Positions 9,369-24,245 of a stretch of DNA of 47,779 nt are shown in pieces. The notes beneath the pieces were generated by a model. That model worked only from the letters and a program-made list of their open reading frames with translations, did no database searches and was not told the DNA's origin. Source of the stretch: Sphingobacteriia bacterium (lineage in GTDB: Bacteria > Bacteroidota > Bacteroidia > B-17B0 > Aurantibacillaceae); NCBI GenBank assembly GCA_009927275.1, contig RFNG01000119.1:1-47779 (forward strand), given 5' to 3'. The position numbers and the translations under genes are program-made. Each line of letters opens with the position of its first letter. Position 1 is the stretch's first letter.

Positions 9369-10699
9369 ATGAAACGGTTTATAGATACCATACGAAACAT
9401 TTGGACCATTGAAGAGTTGCGTAACCGCATTCTTCTCACAATATTAATGGTTTCCATTTACCGTCTGGGATCCTATGTGGTTCTTCCTGGCGTTAATATT
9501 GACGTTTTAAAAGCCTCTGCATCCAGTCAATCGGGTGGTATTGTGGGCTTAATCAATATGTTTTCGGGCGGTGCTTTTTTAAGAGCATCAATTTTTGGAC
9601 TTGGCATAATGCCCTATATCACGGCGTCCATTATTATTCAGCTTTTGGGAATGGCCGTACCATATTTTCAAAAACTGCAACGCGAAGGTGAAAGTGGACG
9701 TAAAAAAATTAACCAATATACACGGTTATTAACTATTGCGGTAACAGCCGTTCAGGCACCTGGATACATCGCATCTATAAAGTCTGGTGCCCCAAATGCA
9801 TTTTTTAGAATCCTCAACACTTTGGTGGATTCAATCTATTTTTATTTTAGTTGCAGGCACCATGTTTGTTATGTGGTTAGGTGAGCGTATCACAGATAAA
9901 GGCCTGGGCAATGGTATTTCATTGATAATTATGATTGGTATTATTTCCCGCTTACCTTTTGCGTTTTTATCAGAATTAAAATCCAGAATGTCGGGTAACG
10001 GTGGTTTAATTATTTTTTTAATTGAAATTGTTTTTCTGCTATTGGTAATAATAAGCTGTATTTTACTTGTACAAGGAACGCGAAAAATTCCGGTGCAGTT
10101 TGCTAAAAAAAATTGTAGGAAACAAGCAATACGGAGGTGTACGTCAGTACATCCCGCTAAAGGTAAATGCCGTGGGCGTAATGCCAATTATTTTTGCACA
10201 AGCTATTATGTTTATTCCGGCTGCAATTGCCGGTTTTTCTAACAGTTCAGGGGGTATTTTTACAGCCCGATACGGATTTTGGTACAATTTTATTTTTGCT
10301 GTACTTATTATCCTCTTCACATATTTCTATACTGCAATCATGGTAAATCCCAATCAATTGGCAGATGACATGAAACGCAATGGCGGCTTTATTCCGGGCA
10401 TTAAGCCTGGAAAGGCCACTGCAAAATTTATAGATGATATAATGAGTAAAATCACTTTTCCGGGTTCAGTATTTTTAGCACTTGTAGCCATAATGCCTGC
10501 ATTTGCGCAAAAAATTGGAGTCAACAGTGCTTTTGCAGATTTTTATGGCGGCACATCCCTGCTCATTTTGGTAGGTGTTGTACTTGATACATTACAGCAA
10601 ATAGAAACCTATTTATTAAACCGTCATTATGATGGATTAATGAAAACCGGACGTATAAAAGGACGTGGCACTAACGCCATGATGGTACAACAAGGCTAA
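9369..10699 (+). CDS. secY: Protein translocase subunit SecY, frame broken twice
   Basis: SecY is the pore of the Sec translocon in the inner membrane. Three overlapping frames together give a complete SecY of 442 aa once one base is removed at each of two places. The first break is at the T6 run 9801-9806: without one T the protein runs [13 protein letters not shown] and on to [17 protein letters not shown]. The second is at the A8 run 10105-10112: without one A it runs [19 protein letters not shown]. Hydrophobic helices and the FNNS-region equivalents continue to the normal end. Sequence is intact otherwise, so single-base sequencing or assembly errors are most likely; slippage at the runs is an alternative. 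Essential gene, between rplO and infA. Confidence 0.93.
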
Positions 10700-14103: not shown

Positions 14104-14136
14104 AAAAAGGCCGTGCATTTTTGTACGGCTTTTTTA
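14104..14136 (+). terminator. Intrinsic terminator of the ribosomal operon
   Basis: AAAAAG-GCCGTGC, loop ATTTTT, GTACGGC and then a T6 run. The 7-bp G/C-rich core contains one G-T pair, and the flanking A and T runs pair further. It starts 16 nt after the rplQ stop. The loop carries the TTTG of a likely promoter for the next gene. Confidence 0.8.
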
Positions 14137-14150
14137 ATTATGTATTTTTA
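14120..14150 (+). promoter_or_regulatory. Likely promoter of the 14155 lipoprotein gene
   Basis: TTTG at 14120-14123, a 19-nt spacer and TATTTTTA at 14143-14150 fit the Bacteroidota -33/-7 pattern, with A instead of G at the last -7 position. The -33 box lies in the terminator loop. Only 4 nt separate the -7 element from the ATG at 14155, implying a leaderless mRNA. Confidence 0.4.
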
Positions 14151-14154
14151 TATT

Positions 14155-15015
14155 ATGAAACACATTATAGCCACTGCTCGTATAATATTTATTTATGCCT
14201 TGTGTTATGCATGCAGTCCTTCAACTTCAACGCAATCTGAATCGTTAAACGACACTACTGCTGTATCTACTGAAAATTCTCGAGAAACAGATGTTCAGGA
14301 TACAACTAAATTTAAGTTTGATTTTGCAATTGCAAACATTCCGTCTCCTGCTCAGGTATTGATGCAAATGCACTCAAAAAATACAATATCTAATGATCTG
14401 TTACTAAAGACAGACCTGGTTGAAAAGTTTAATAATGAATTTGTTAAATCCTTGGCCATGGGGGTTTATAACATTGATTTTGCCTATTCTATTCAAACCA
14501 ATCAATCGCAAAATGTTTTAAATTACATGAAAGCCATAGCAGCTATGAGTATGAATTTGGGATTAAAAAATGCTTTAGATCAAATTTTAGGTCAGCGTGT
14601 TGAGCAAAATCTAAGTCAAAAAGATAGTTTGTTTTCAATTTTAGATGATGTTTTTTATAAAAGCGATGCTTTTTTAAAAACAAATAAACGTATGAAAGTA
14701 GCCTCTTTAATTTTTACTGGTAGTTGGATTGAGACCTTGTATTTAAATGGAATTGGAGGTCAGCAGGCAAATGATGAAGCATCTAAACTTTATGCCAAAA
14801 CATTATTATGGCAGCAACGATTTCATTTAGAAAACTTAATTCGCCTATTAAATGACTTTAAATCAGATCCTCAGGTTGCAGCCCTATGTACAGACTTAAA
14901 TTCCATTTTAGTGCAAATTCAGGCCGAAAAGCAAGCTGAAAACATACAGGATAAGCGTTTTGCCGAATTAATACAAGCCATATCTAATGTAAGAGCAAAA
15001 TTATTTAAAGTGTAA
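14155..15015 (+). CDS. Lipoprotein of unknown function
   Basis: I do not recognise the family. From the ATG at 14155 the product is 286 aa; the frame is open to 14113, but that start lies in the terminator. Residues 1-19 form a signal sequence ending in LCYAC, a likely lipobox with Cys19 as lipid site. A Ser/Thr-rich linker of about 25 residues follows. The rest is mostly predicted helix, with a conserved-looking block MGVYNIDFAYSIQTNQSQNV near residue 102. It overlaps the convergent DUF2400 gene by 11 bp. Probably cell-envelope located. Confidence 0.8.
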   Translation: MKHIIATARIIFIYALCYACSPSTSTQSESLNDTTAVSTENSRETDVQDTTKFKFDFAIANIPSPAQVLMQMHSKNTISNDLLLKTDLVEKFNNEFVKSLAMGVYNIDFAYSIQTNQSQNVLNYMKAIAAMSMNLGLKNALDQILGQRVEQNLSQKDSLFSILDDVFYKSDAFLKTNKRMKVASLIFTGSWIETLYLNGIGGQQANDEASKLYAKTLLWQQRFHLENLIRLLNDFKSDPQVAALCTDLNSILVQIQAEKQAENIQDKRFAELIQAISNVRAKLFKV

Positions 15016-15766
15016 AGCCTGCACCTATACAAAACAAGGCAGTATCGTATTTAACGGGATCTTCAGGATTAAGGGTTTTTAAAAAGGCGGTAATTTGTTT
15101 TACATGTTTCCAATGCGCTTGTTTTGAATTGATAATTTTAAGTTTATAGGCGGCCCTGCAAACATGAACATCCAGTGGAATCATTAAATTGCTGCAGGAT
15201 ACACCGGTCCACAATCCTAGATCGGTACCTCCTGCAGATGAACGAACCATCCATTTTAAAAATAAACACAATCGTTTAGCGGCTGCATTTTTATCTATAT
15301 TACTAATGTGTTTTTCCAATCGCGGATGTTTGTTTTCATGTAAAAATTCAAGTCTAAAAGCGCGTATTTGGTTTTCAAAATCAAGCGTTGAATCCTTACA
15401 AAAGGCTTTTTCAATACTGCCATGGCGTAACAGTAATTTTTGCAACTGAATAAAAGTATGATGCGCATCATTTACATTAAATGTGCGGTAGTAAAAGTTT
15501 TTTAAATGCTTTTGGTCTTTAATTTTATAATTAAGTACAAATTCGTAAGGGCAATGCCCCATCATGCCCATCCATGTTTTTGCAGTTGCGATTATGTTTT
15601 GCCGCTGCCCCCAACATATTAAAGCTGTTAAAAATGCACTAATTTCAGCATCGGCCGTTGATTTACAGAGCATTGGAATTTGAACAGGATCAGAAGCTGC
15701 AAATGCGCGGTTGCCATATTTTGTATCGTATGCATCTAAAATGGACTTTAGTTTTTTAATTTTCAT
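15005..15766 (-). CDS. DUF2400 / TIGR02757 family protein
   Basis: A 253-aa protein of the DUF2400 (TIGR02757) family, whose function is not established as far as I know. Residues 43-67 (SAFLTALICWGQRQNIIATAK) carry the family's helical block. The C-terminal third has IPLDVHVCRAAYKL (residues 196-209) followed by NPEDPVKYDTALFCIGAG, which resembles the catalytic-Asp segment and following helix of HhH-GPD DNA glycosylases (VDTHIFRV in E. coli Nth). The Lys-bearing hairpin of Nth is not evident. The gene is divergent from radC with 30 bp between starts. A DNA-repair role is inference. Confidence 0.85.
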   Translation of the reverse strand: MKIKKLKSILDAYDTKYGNRAFAASDPVQIPMLCKSTADAEISAFLTALICWGQRQNIIATAKTWMGMMGHCPYEFVLNYKIKDQKHLKNFYYRTFNVNDAHHTFIQLQKLLLRHGSIEKAFCKDSTLDFENQIRAFRLEFLHENKHPRLEKHISNIDKNAAAKRLCLFLKWMVRSSAGGTDLGLWTGVSCSNLMIPLDVHVCRAAYKLKIINSKQAHWKHVKQITAFLKTLNPEDPVKYDTALFCIGAGFTL

Positions 15767-15796
15767 AAATAAATTGTATTTTAGGATATATAGCTT

Positions 15797-16480
15797 ATGC
15801 CGGGTCTTAAAATTAAAGAATGGAACACTGCAGATCAGCCCCGTGAAAAATTAATTCGCTTTGGAGCGGGGCATTTAACAGATGCAGAACTATTGGCCAT
15901 ATTAATCAGCTCAGGAAGAGCAGGTGAATCGGCATTGGATATAGCTAAAAAAATAGTATCAAGTAAGCACTACAACACCATTTCAACCTGGCATAGCGCT
16001 AACTTTAAAGCATTTAACGGTATTGGAAATGCGCGGGCTTTAACATTACTGGCTGCAATTGAATGGAGTCGCAGAATACATCGCAATCGAGTACCTAAAA
16101 CCCAAATTAAGTCAAGCTATGATGCCTATGAAGTGTTTCGGCAGGTGTTATCAAATCCGGTACAGGAAGAGGCCTGGATGCTCTGTTTAGACCGCTCAAA
16201 CAGTATTGTGGCACAACGTTTTATAAGCAGGGGAGGTGTTTCAGCAACCATATTGGATATTCGTTTAATTTGCCGTTTTGCGCTTGAAACGTCCTCATCC
16301 GGGGTAGTAATTGCGCACAATCATCCTTCAGGGCAATTACAGCCGAGTGCTTCAGATATACAGGTTACTCAAAAAATTTGTACGGCCTTAGGCTATATTG
16401 ATATTAAACTTTTAGACCATCTTATTTTAACAGAAGATAAGTACCTTAGCTTTGCCGATAAAGGCCTTATTACATTTTAA
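15797..16480 (+). CDS. radC: RadC family JAB-domain protein
   Basis: The 227-aa product has an N-terminal helix-hairpin-helix (FNGIGNARALTLLAAIE, residues 73-89) and a C-terminal JAB/MPN metal-binding domain with E125, HNHPSG (His174 and His176) and Asp187. RadC proteins were named for DNA repair but their activity is not settled. Length is normal. It opens a cluster with 2-nt gap to wecB. A TATTTTAG element at 15777-15784 may be its -7 box. Its divergent neighbour also looks DNA-related. Confidence 0.93.
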   Translation: MPGLKIKEWNTADQPREKLIRFGAGHLTDAELLAILISSGRAGESALDIAKKIVSSKHYNTISTWHSANFKAFNGIGNARALTLLAAIEWSRRIHRNRVPKTQIKSSYDAYEVFRQVLSNPVQEEAWMLCLDRSNSIVAQRFISRGGVSATILDIRLICRFALETSSSGVVIAHNHPSGQLQPSASDIQVTQKICTALGYIDIKLLDHLILTEDKYLSFADKGLITF

Positions 16481-21905: not shown

Positions 21906-22853
21906 TTAATGGGCATTAGGCATCCAATGGGGAGCCATAGATTTAATTTTTTTTAAAAGGTTTTGTTGATGTTGCAGATCCGATGCACTTCGGTTTTCAG
22001 AAATATGATTTTGAAACTTTGTATAGTCCTCTAATACCTCAAAAAGAAGTTGTTGGTCTTTATTATAAAATGTTGTTATAAATTTTTTCCAAATGTAATC
22101 TATGGCCTGTGAATTTGGATGTGCAAGATCGGCTTTATAAAAACGATAGTCCCTCAGGTCTTCCTGAATCCATTCAAAAGATGGAAAATAGTAAATGTCA
22201 GGATGTTTTTGAATAAGCATGTGCAATGCCACATGTAAAACACTTTTACTTAAAACATTTTCGTGTATGCCATCTCGTAAGTGTTTTACGGGAGAAATGG
22301 TAAAAATAATTTTAAGATCTGGATTTATATTTTTTAATAAGGTTAGTATACTAGAGCTGCTTAATACCAAATCGTGTACATCCGATAACTCTTTCCAAAA
22401 ATCAGAGGCCGGTTGCTTATGACAATTAGCACATACAAAATCATGTTGCTTATGCTTGTATACCCAAGCGCTGCCCCACGTTATAAATAGTGCTTTAGAT
22501 TTAAGTAATACCTTAAATTGTTTAGCTTGTTGTTGACGTAAGGTATTTTGTAATGCCTGGGGATCTGAAGCAGAAATTTGACCGTGTGTAAAAAAACTGC
22601 AATAGCGGTTGGTATCTCGTTTTACGAAGGACGTAACAGGCACTTCAATTTGAGTTAAAACGGAACGTAAAATTTGATTAATGGCCAGGGGATGGTAAAT
22701 ATTACCAAACATATTTGAAAAAACAGGAAGGTTATATGCATTAAGCCGTTCGTATAAATGTTCGGAAAAGCATGACCCTTCAAATACAATGGTATCGTTA
22801 CATTGCAACTCAAACGGCGCGGGTTTTGCCTTTAAGTCAAGATGAAATTTCAT
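21906..22853 (-). CDS. GSCFA family protein
   Basis: The GSCFA family is related to SGNH/GDSL hydrolases; its substrate is unknown. The 315-aa product from ATG 22853 begins [16 protein letters not shown]; an in-frame TTG 21 nt upstream is less likely because the ATG overlaps the preceding stop as ATGA. The name-giving motif is [14 protein letters not shown] (Ser27 in GSCF, residues 26-29). A C-terminal [14 protein letters not shown] looks like the SGNH Asp-x-x-His block. No signal peptide is seen. It sits between the CCA enzyme and aspS. Confidence 0.88.
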
Positions 22854-24245
22854 ACGGGATGTTGTTTGTGCCAAGAGTCTAAAAAATCAAGCGCCTCTTG
22901 AACTTGATTTGGTATAATTCCGTCTAAAATAGCATCTTTCAAAGCATCTTTCATCAATCCAATGCGCTTACAGGGTTTTAAGTTATAGCGAAACATAATA
23001 TCTTCTCCGCTAACTGGTGCTTGCCAGTTTCGAATACGGTCACGGGCCTCAAGCTCTATTAACTTTTGCCTAACAAGCGCAAAATTGGTTAAATACCGTT
23101 TAACCTTAAGCGGATTTTTAGTGGTAATGTCAGACTCACAAAGCAGCATTAAATCGTCTATAGCATCACCCGCTTCAAATAAAAGCCTTCTAACTGCACT
23201 GTCGGTAACTTCACTTTTTGCTAAAACAATTGGTCTTAAATGCAACTGAACCAGTTTTTGAACGTATTGCATTTTTTCATTTAAGGGAAGTTTTAAACGT
23301 TTAAAAATTTGAGGTACCATTCGGGCACCTTTATCTTCATGTCCGTGAAACGTAAAGCCATGTCCGGGTTCAAATCGTTTTGTTTTTGGTTTGGCAATAT
23401 CGTGTAAGAGTGCAGCCCACAATAGCCATAACGAATTTGTTTTTTGAGATAAGTTATCAAGAACTTCAAGTGTATGGTAAAAATTATCCTTGTGTGATTT
23501 TCCATTTATGGTTTCGGTGCCTTTTAATGCATGTAATTCAGGAAAAATAATTTTTAGTAAAGTAGTTTCATCAAGTAGCGTAAAACCTCTGGAAGGAAAA
23601 GGGGGCGGTTATAATTTTATGCAACTCCTCATGTATGCGCTCCATGGAAATAATTTCTATACGTCCTGCCTGCTGTTCAATAGATTTTAGGGTTTCATCT
23701 TGTATGGTAAATTGAAGTTGCGTTGCAAATCTAATGGCGCGTAACATACGCAAAGGATCATCCGAAAACGTAATATTCGGATCGCAAGGCGTTTTTAAAA
23801 TACCTGCATTTAAATCATGTAATCCTGAAAATAAATCAATTAATTGTCCATATGTTGGTCCGTTAACAGATACGGCCAGTGCATTTACGGTAAAATCTCT
23901 ACGGCTTAAATCATCAAAAAGCGAACCGTTTTCTACTATTGGTTTTCGTGAATTACGTGTATAACTTTCTTTACGGGCTCCAACAAATTCAAGCTCATAA
24001 CCATTCCAAATAATTTGAGCCGTTCCAAAATTTTTAAAAACACATAATTTAGATTCGGGTACTTTTTGATGCACAGTTTCAGCTAACTGTATGCCCGACC
24101 CCAAGGTTACAAAATCTATATCCTTGCTTGTACGATGTAATAAAAAATCGCGAACATAACCACCCACTACATAGGTGTTTTGACGAAGTTGCTCTGCAGC
24201 CTCCTGTACTATTTTAAATACCGGTTCATTTAAAAACGGAAACAT
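22850..24245 (-). CDS. cca: tRNA nucleotidyltransferase (CCA-adding type, HD domain), frame broken once
   Basis: Class II polymerase-beta-type nucleotidyltransferase that adds or repairs tRNA 3' CCA. The N-terminal part has [21 protein letters not shown] (residues 27-47) with the catalytic Asp pair, [20 protein letters not shown] and the [12 protein letters not shown] block. The C-terminal part has an HD domain ([20 protein letters not shown]). One base must be removed at the C5/T4 stretch (plus-strand G5 run 23601-23605) to join them: [15 protein letters not shown] then follows. The joined protein is 464 aa, the usual length. Sequencing error is the simplest explanation. The stop overlaps the GSCFA start. 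Confidence 0.92.

Follow-up and report, generated by a model that had tools for sequence, protein, structure and literature searches.

The window, by which we mean the whole stretch of 47,779 nucleotides that we analyzed, hosts a gene of the DUF2400 family that diverges from radC (Table 1). Its product matches both PF09674 (DUF2400; E 1.6e-67) and TIGR02757 (E 4.8e-58), and this supports the family assignment made in an earlier note on this DNA. The open reading frame contains the two segments, PLDVHVCRAAYKL and NPEDPVKYDTALFCIGAG, in which the note had seen by eye the catalytic region of a divergent HhH-GPD glycosylase. On the opposite strand, a 300-codon open reading frame (14113-15015, +) runs 11 bases into the 3' end of the DUF2400 gene. 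This frame, probably a lipoprotein gene by eye, has no family match above the cut-off.

Table 1. Features of the DUF2400 locus, with positions counted from the first base of the window
Feature	Position	Strand	Assignment or basis
DUF2400/TIGR02757 gene P0001, 253 aa, ATG start	15005..15766	-	Candidate bifunctional HhH-GPD DNA glycosylase/AP lyase
Putative helix-hairpin-helix, residues 148-174 (helix 148-153, hairpin 154-163, helix 164-174)	15245..15325	-	Model secondary structure
Lys164 codon, invariant, candidate Schiff-base nucleophile	15275..15277	-	Conservation and fragment structural alignment
PLDVH, residues 197-201, end of the 'GPD' loop; Pro197, Asp199 and His201 invariant (n = 154)	15164..15178	-	
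Asp199 codon, catalytic-type Asp	15170-15172	-	Conservation and profile alignment
D236-P237 and C-terminal helix 237-248, with conserved Y240 and D241	15023..15061	-	Alignment of 154 sequences and model
Gap between the divergent start codons of DUF2400 and radC, 30 bp	15767..15796		
radC, divergent neighbour	15797..16480	+	Pfam and TIGR profiles; functional link to DUF2400 not supported

The earlier note had also proposed that DUF2400 and radC share a divergent promoter region. The short gap between the two genes is indeed present in the window, but a functional link is not borne out elsewhere. Apart from the window's own locus, radC was found only at L056 and L059, that is at 2 of 153 other DUF2400 loci, although some copies could be missed because the flanks searched were 1.5 kb in L002-L031 and at most about 4-5 kb elsewhere. 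Of the 19 loci from near relatives, not counting that of the window (L195), five have the edge of radC approximately 1.3-1.4 kb away. Two genomes of the same genus (L250 and L251) host a pair composed of DUF2400 and a transporter gene (MFS by eye) that diverges from radC, with the transporter in between, and this transporter gene is missing at the DUF2400-radC locus of the window. Since the transporter separates the two genes in these two genomes, the adjacency of DUF2400 and radC looks incidental. The commonest neighbour of DUF2400 is an ABC transporter (50 of the 122 loci, out of 154, for which neighbours were counted), which says nothing on the function of the family.

To obtain a structural model, we relied on AlphaFold2 and on an alignment of 79 family members (A2). 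The model is confident (pLDDT 94.8, pTM 0.92) and nearly all helical, with one helix beginning at K164 and another (200-208) directly after D199. When the full model was compared with solved structures by VIA, the top match was endonuclease III (Z 13.2, rmsd 3.3, 187 residues aligned), and NTHL1 (12.2), MjOgg (11.9), MutY (11.7), TmOgg (11.4) and hOGG1 (10.2) also had high Z values. Among the best 50 VIA rows, 43 are HhH-GPD DNA glycosylases or their homologues and the other 7 are DUF2419. Foldseek returned no match at E <= 0.001 for the full model, and its ranks 1-25 are all HhH-GPD proteins (MUTYH, MutY, AGOG, OGG1 and TAG), the first unrelated structure being at rank 26. Two of these 25 ranks carry no title and belong to 1XG7, which is an AGOG according to PMC9638937. 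Helical models can attain VIA Z values of this size through the arrangement of their helices alone; we nevertheless accepted the HhH-GPD fold because the matches are so uniformly of one identity. The structure prediction and fold search suggested in the earlier note therefore agree with its reading of the protein as a divergent HhH-GPD enzyme. As in the rest of the superfamily, the predicted fold is all-helical with two domains and a helix-hairpin-helix, and a loop ends in an invariant catalytic-type Asp at the start of a helix. The fold matches of the full and fragment models point to residues 148-174 as the helix-hairpin-helix.

PF00730 (HhH-GPD) finds no match in the window protein up to E 10, and it matches 12 of the 79 DUF2400 members at E <= 10, with a best value of 0.012 and never significantly. 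No relative of solved structure was found by phmmer with the single window protein, and the profile search returned only a designed protein (E 1.6). Overall, we consider it highly likely that DUF2400 has the fold and the active-site layout of HhH-GPD enzymes.

The residues that could support catalysis were examined in 154 sequences, the window protein included, aligned by script; two smaller sets comprised 26 diverse members (A1) and the 79 members of A2. The latter were chosen from 104 available sequences: the 25 that were omitted by choice are mostly close Flavobacteriaceae and include the partial L154, and L141, L142 and L148 were trimmed to the domain. The other sets also covered most of the available material (A3, 25 of 30 loci; A4, 7 of 8; A6, 52 of 79), and A5, in which RadC and MutY were mixed, was set aside. 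Twelve positions are invariant in all 154 sequences, namely D26, P27, G53, D100, K164, R165, W172, R175, G184, P197, D199 and H201. Conservation at K164 is partly selected, since 103 of the 154 sequences were retrieved with either of two peptide patterns, and the Lys-Arg pair is part of one of them. K164, R165, P197, D199 and H201 are likewise present in 51 of 51 loci retrieved solely by the Pfam profile.

The earlier note had suggested Asp199 as the catalytic acid and had called for its conservation and for profile-profile comparison to be checked. Besides being invariant, D199 is aligned by hhalign onto the Asp of endonuclease III when A2 is compared with 25 endonuclease III sequences, with PLDVH paired to VDTH (probability 89%, E 2e-6). 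The score of 47.9 was not approached by any of 100 column-shuffled controls (maximum 24.7), and reversed profiles gave about 16. Asp199 as a catalytic-type acid is thus upheld by both approaches.

The note had further stated that the Lys of bifunctional enzymes is not seen, and this does not hold. K164 is the sole lysine conserved throughout the 154 sequences and is followed by D199 at a spacing of 35 residues in 114 sequences, 34 in 21, 33 in 18 and 32 in one. Since the output of the structural search gives just the first and last aligned residues, we folded a fragment whose first residue is K164 (pLDDT 93.5) and aligned it structurally. VIA aligned 66 chains, 15 of them with Z >= 2; all 15 are HhH-GPD enzymes and all alignments start at the first residue of the fragment. 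This residue falls on residue 129 of TmOgg and MjOgg (which we take to be the catalytic Lys of MjOgg), on 126 in the bacterial MutY rows, on 218 of human MUTYH and on 231 of a Deinococcus endonuclease III. It also falls on residue 140 of Pa-AGOG and 249 of human and mouse OGG1, and PMC9638937 gives K140 with D172 in AGOG and K249 with D268 in OGG1 as catalytic. The Z values of the fragment are low (2.1-5.9), and Foldseek reaches no better than E 1.7 for it and lists unrelated structures from rank 6 on. We nevertheless place K164 at the position of the catalytic Lys, where the HhH hairpin ends, because the register agrees across AGOG and OGG1. With Lys164 and Asp199 both invariant and both at catalytic positions, the arrangement in DUF2400 is that of a bifunctional glycosylase/AP lyase.

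To better characterize the family, we compared it with the known glycosylases of the same fold. The active site shows a correspondence with that of AGOG, the archaeal 8-oxoguanine DNA glycosylase (PF09171; PDB 1XQO/1XQP and 1XG7), which is likewise all-helical. In AGOG the catalytic Lys lies at the end of the hairpin, the Asp follows 32 residues later (K140/D172 and K142/D174) and a Pro precedes the Asp by two positions (P172 of Pab-AGOG), as described in PMC9638937. DUF2400 reproduces both traits, with its spacing of 32-35 and with P197. In contrast, PF09171 gives no hit to the window protein up to E 10, and AGOG is absent from the best 50 VIA rows of the full model, yet comes second in Foldseek. 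The C-terminal stretch of DUF2400 may contribute to a base pocket: in the fragment-model alignments, the aligned range reaches residues 231-232 of AGOG and 324-325 of OGG1, and thus the part that holds the base-pocket residues of these enzymes. A correspondence of D236 and Y240 with D208 and W212 of Pab-AGOG was considered and remained unconfirmed, as the aligned end of the fragment alignment suggests another offset. In AGOG, the Gln that reads N7-H is Q24 (PMC9638937), and 8-oxoguanine is sandwiched by Trp/Phe.

Endonuclease III and MutY (PF00730 with an Fe-S loop) are the best match in overall fold and share the Asp-x-His motif by profile. Unlike these enzymes, none of the 154 DUF2400 sequences has the C-X6-C-X2-C-X5-C loop, under either a strict or a relaxed pattern, and the insertion between Lys and Asp is longer in DUF2400. 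As for the OGG1/Ogg2 group, residue 249 of OGG1 aligns with Lys164 and the PIDTH of OGG1-type proteins (A4) resembles PLDVH. OGG_N (PF07934) did not match the window protein at E 10, and the profile comparison between DUF2400 and seven OGG1-type sequences was not significant (probability 4.5%).

One protein outside the 154 may connect DUF2400 to the Fe-S enzymes. The Archaeoglobus profundus pleomorphic provirus 1 encodes a protein (L253:2509-3768) that matches DUF2400 (E 6.2e-30) and keeps the Lys-Arg pair and the Asp, but has lost the Pro and the His of PLDVH. A C-X8-C-X2-C-X5-C motif starts 53 residues after its Asp, and the C-X6-C-X2-C-X5-C of endonuclease III starts 49-51 residues after the Asp in those 20 of the 25 sequences that have this pattern. 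Such a motif arises in 6 of 20000 shuffles of the protein. Although confined to one sequence, it is an independent sign of the kinship between DUF2400 and the endonuclease III/MutY group. Direct comparison of the single protein with endonuclease III was not significant, and in IMG/VR, phages and plasmids we found no relatives of it beyond DUF2400 proteins. Its C-terminal tail resembles by eye a PD-(D/E)XK nuclease.

Besides bacterial genomes, DUF2400 occurs in phages. The gene was detected in 15 of the 50,697 phage records searched. Eleven of them are named phages of Bacteroides, Parabacteroides, Phocaeicola or Alistipes, three carry only the title 'Bacteriophage sp.' and the last is the Archaeoglobus provirus. 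Two copies found with the window protein, gp24 of Parabacteroides phage PDS1 (a DUF2400 protein with E 2.1e-61) and that of Bacteroides phage C1_85S2P, were deposited as 'N-glycosylase/DNA lysase', so that a glycosylase label has already been applied to two phage copies by depositors. In both phages the gene lies between a 'condensin/DNA repair' gene (RecN in the PDS1 note) and NinB. More generally, phage copies are near RecN-like, NinB, RuvC, RecT and replication-initiation genes, and those of IMG/VR contigs are near RecT, replication-initiation genes, DNA methyltransferase or ribonucleotide reductase. Replication and repair settings recur on Bacteroides-group phages and large IMG/VR contigs (L134, L145, L136, L149, L254, L255 and L256). 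One contig of 423,825 bases has DUF2400 beside ribonucleotide reductase, and another of 153,375 bases has a terminase and a sigma-factor-like gene nearby. PDS1 gp24 has a C-terminal extension of about 130-140 residues, and DUF2400 proteins on phage contigs (L141, L142, L148 and L254:3941-5089) have extensions of about 130-180 residues. The tail of L141 has no Pfam match, and five DUF2400 proteins searched against PHROGs at E 0.1 returned no family.

We measured the co-occurrence of DUF2400 with known glycosylases in 296 genomes drawn from the phylum and in 14 control genomes. DUF2400 is present in 179 of the 296, Fpg in 53 and OGG_N in 78, with 70 of the OGG_N matches beginning near the start of the domain. 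The remaining 8 are partial and were left out of the 70; six of them are in DUF2400 genomes and start at position 38-39. No genome combines DUF2400 with a start-matched OGG_N gene: 179 have DUF2400 alone, 70 have such an OGG gene alone and 47 have neither. Start-matched OGG_N is therefore found in 0 of 179 genomes with DUF2400 and in 70 of 117 without it. The P-value at the genome level is inflated by relatedness, as the 70 genomes lie in four families; all 4 are among the 16 of 51 families that lack DUF2400 (p 0.007). The genome of the window, which is 99.3% complete, contains two PF00730 genes and neither Fpg nor OGG_N at E 0.001. Among its near relatives, own genome included, 37 of 41 have DUF2400 and 38 of 41 have no Fpg. 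Two of those without DUF2400 belong to the same genus, are at least 90% complete and contain a third PF00730 gene that is AlkA-like by eye; the other two without a match (G360 and G370) are 81% and 86% complete.

Forty of the 296 genomes have none of DUF2400, Fpg and start-matched OGG. PF00730 matches number at least three in 12 of these, two in 23 and one in 5, so that 28 have one or two. DUF2400 is found in two of the 14 controls, Bacteroides ihuae (no match to Fpg or OGG_N) and Deinobacterium chartae (Fpg present). Searches of the genomes for Q_salvage and AGOG were silent, in the controls as well, and are uninformative. The phyletic pattern suggests that DUF2400 is a glycosylase whose job overlaps with that of OGG1-type enzymes, with the chances of 8-oxoguanine as its substrate about evenly balanced.

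The computed fold, residue positions and conservation, read together with this pattern, lead us to propose for DUF2400 the role of an HhH-GPD DNA glycosylase that lacks an Fe-S cluster and has AP-lyase chemistry, with 8-oxoguanine as its likeliest substrate in the organism of the window. As a whole, we give this proposal an even chance. Its first part, DNA as the substrate and lyase chemistry, hence a bifunctional DNA glycosylase/lyase, is probable; 8-oxoguanine as the main substrate comes just short of even. The helix-hairpin-helix would grip the DNA backbone and the damaged nucleotide would flip into the pocket that separates the two helical domains. There, Asp199 would activate Lys164, which would attack C1' and displace the base, and the resulting Schiff base could resolve through beta-elimination. 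In the organism of the window, where Fpg and an OGG1-type gene were not found, DUF2400 would remove 8-oxoguanine beside MutY. We place 8-oxoguanine first because DUF2400 never meets a start-matched OGG1-type gene and because the window genome has no match to Fpg or OGG1.

HhH-GPD enzymes act on many lesions, and the same fold and mechanism may instead be directed at another lesion, such as oxidised pyrimidines, ring-opened purines or deaminated bases, or at a base modification found in phage DNA. Fpg occurs together with DUF2400 in 48 of the 53 Fpg-positive genomes, including all 11 with Fpg at E < 1e-20. This positive association rules out a simple replacement of Fpg by DUF2400 and implies that the job of DUF2400 may differ from that of Fpg. 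DNA methyltransferase genes near the phage copies of L145 and BI-TP1 also favor a different base. The mutual exclusion with start-matched OGG_N genes and the Lys-Asp spacing close to the 32 of AGOG argue in the opposite direction, and we regard another lesion as unlikely, though deserving serious attention.

A free nucleotide could also be the substrate, as for DUF2419 (Qng1), the queuosine-phosphate glycosylase of queuosine salvage; DUF2400 would then be a nucleotide or nucleoside N-glycosylase with the same fold and Lys/Asp pair. DUF2419 is the sole non-DNA enzyme among the best 50 VIA rows, and its 7 rows (Z 11.2-11.6) have the longest aligned length, up to 225 residues (Z 11.6 over 225). 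It shares with DUF2400 the long insertion between Lys and Asp, and PDB titles name the mutants K199C and D231N, which are 32 residues apart and presumably mark its catalytic pair. However, its rmsd of 4.4-5.0 exceeds that of the three best endonuclease III rows (3.2-3.3), Q_salvage (PF10343) does not match the window protein at E 10, and the phage copies of DUF2400 lie in replication and recombination modules. A substrate of this kind is improbable. Still less probable is the monofunctional glycosylase or non-catalytic lesion-binding protein suggested in the earlier note, which we rejected as first choice because the invariant K164 sits at the catalytic position, even though Mag2 of S. pombe (VIA rank 41) is titled a DNA glycosylase homolog that sculpts DNA at abasic sites.

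If DUF2400 does act on 8-oxoguanine, it may represent a lineage of 8-oxoguanine DNA glycosylases distinct from Fpg, OGG1, Ogg2 and AGOG. It would then possibly account for the removal of oxidised guanine in the many Bacteroidota for which this enzyme is missing, and the phages of gut Bacteroides would carry copies to protect or edit their own DNA. We hold this broader view tentatively, as somewhat less than an even chance. The family is widespread in the phylum, yet it is almost absent from the literature that we searched for DUF2400, TIGR02757 and PF09674, which returned only a mention of DUF2400, in work on Bifidobacterium by its title. For Porphyromonas gingivalis, PMC3747172 states that 8-oxoguanine may be repaired by a mechanism not yet described and that the species has no homologue of Fpg. 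DUF2400 is a candidate for this repair, and one record titled Porphyromonas sp. carries the gene (L119). PMC3747172 also reports that cell extracts of P. gingivalis yielded a 28-mer where Fpg yielded a 25-mer. A 28-mer is not what simple beta-elimination at the lesion would produce, and it counts against DUF2400 as the 8-oxoguanine enzyme there. With a named gene and a predicted Lys164/Asp199 active site, the question becomes an assay of one protein.

Elsewhere in the window, secY (9369-10699, +) is split into three overlapping frames (9369-9884, 9787-10242 and 10067-10699) that correspond to successive segments of the SecY profile. The gene is essential, and its two frameshifts are probably sequence errors of the draft genome. 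A tRNA nucleotidyltransferase-like gene (22850-24245, -) has its head part and its HD part in separate open reading frames, which suggests another frameshift.
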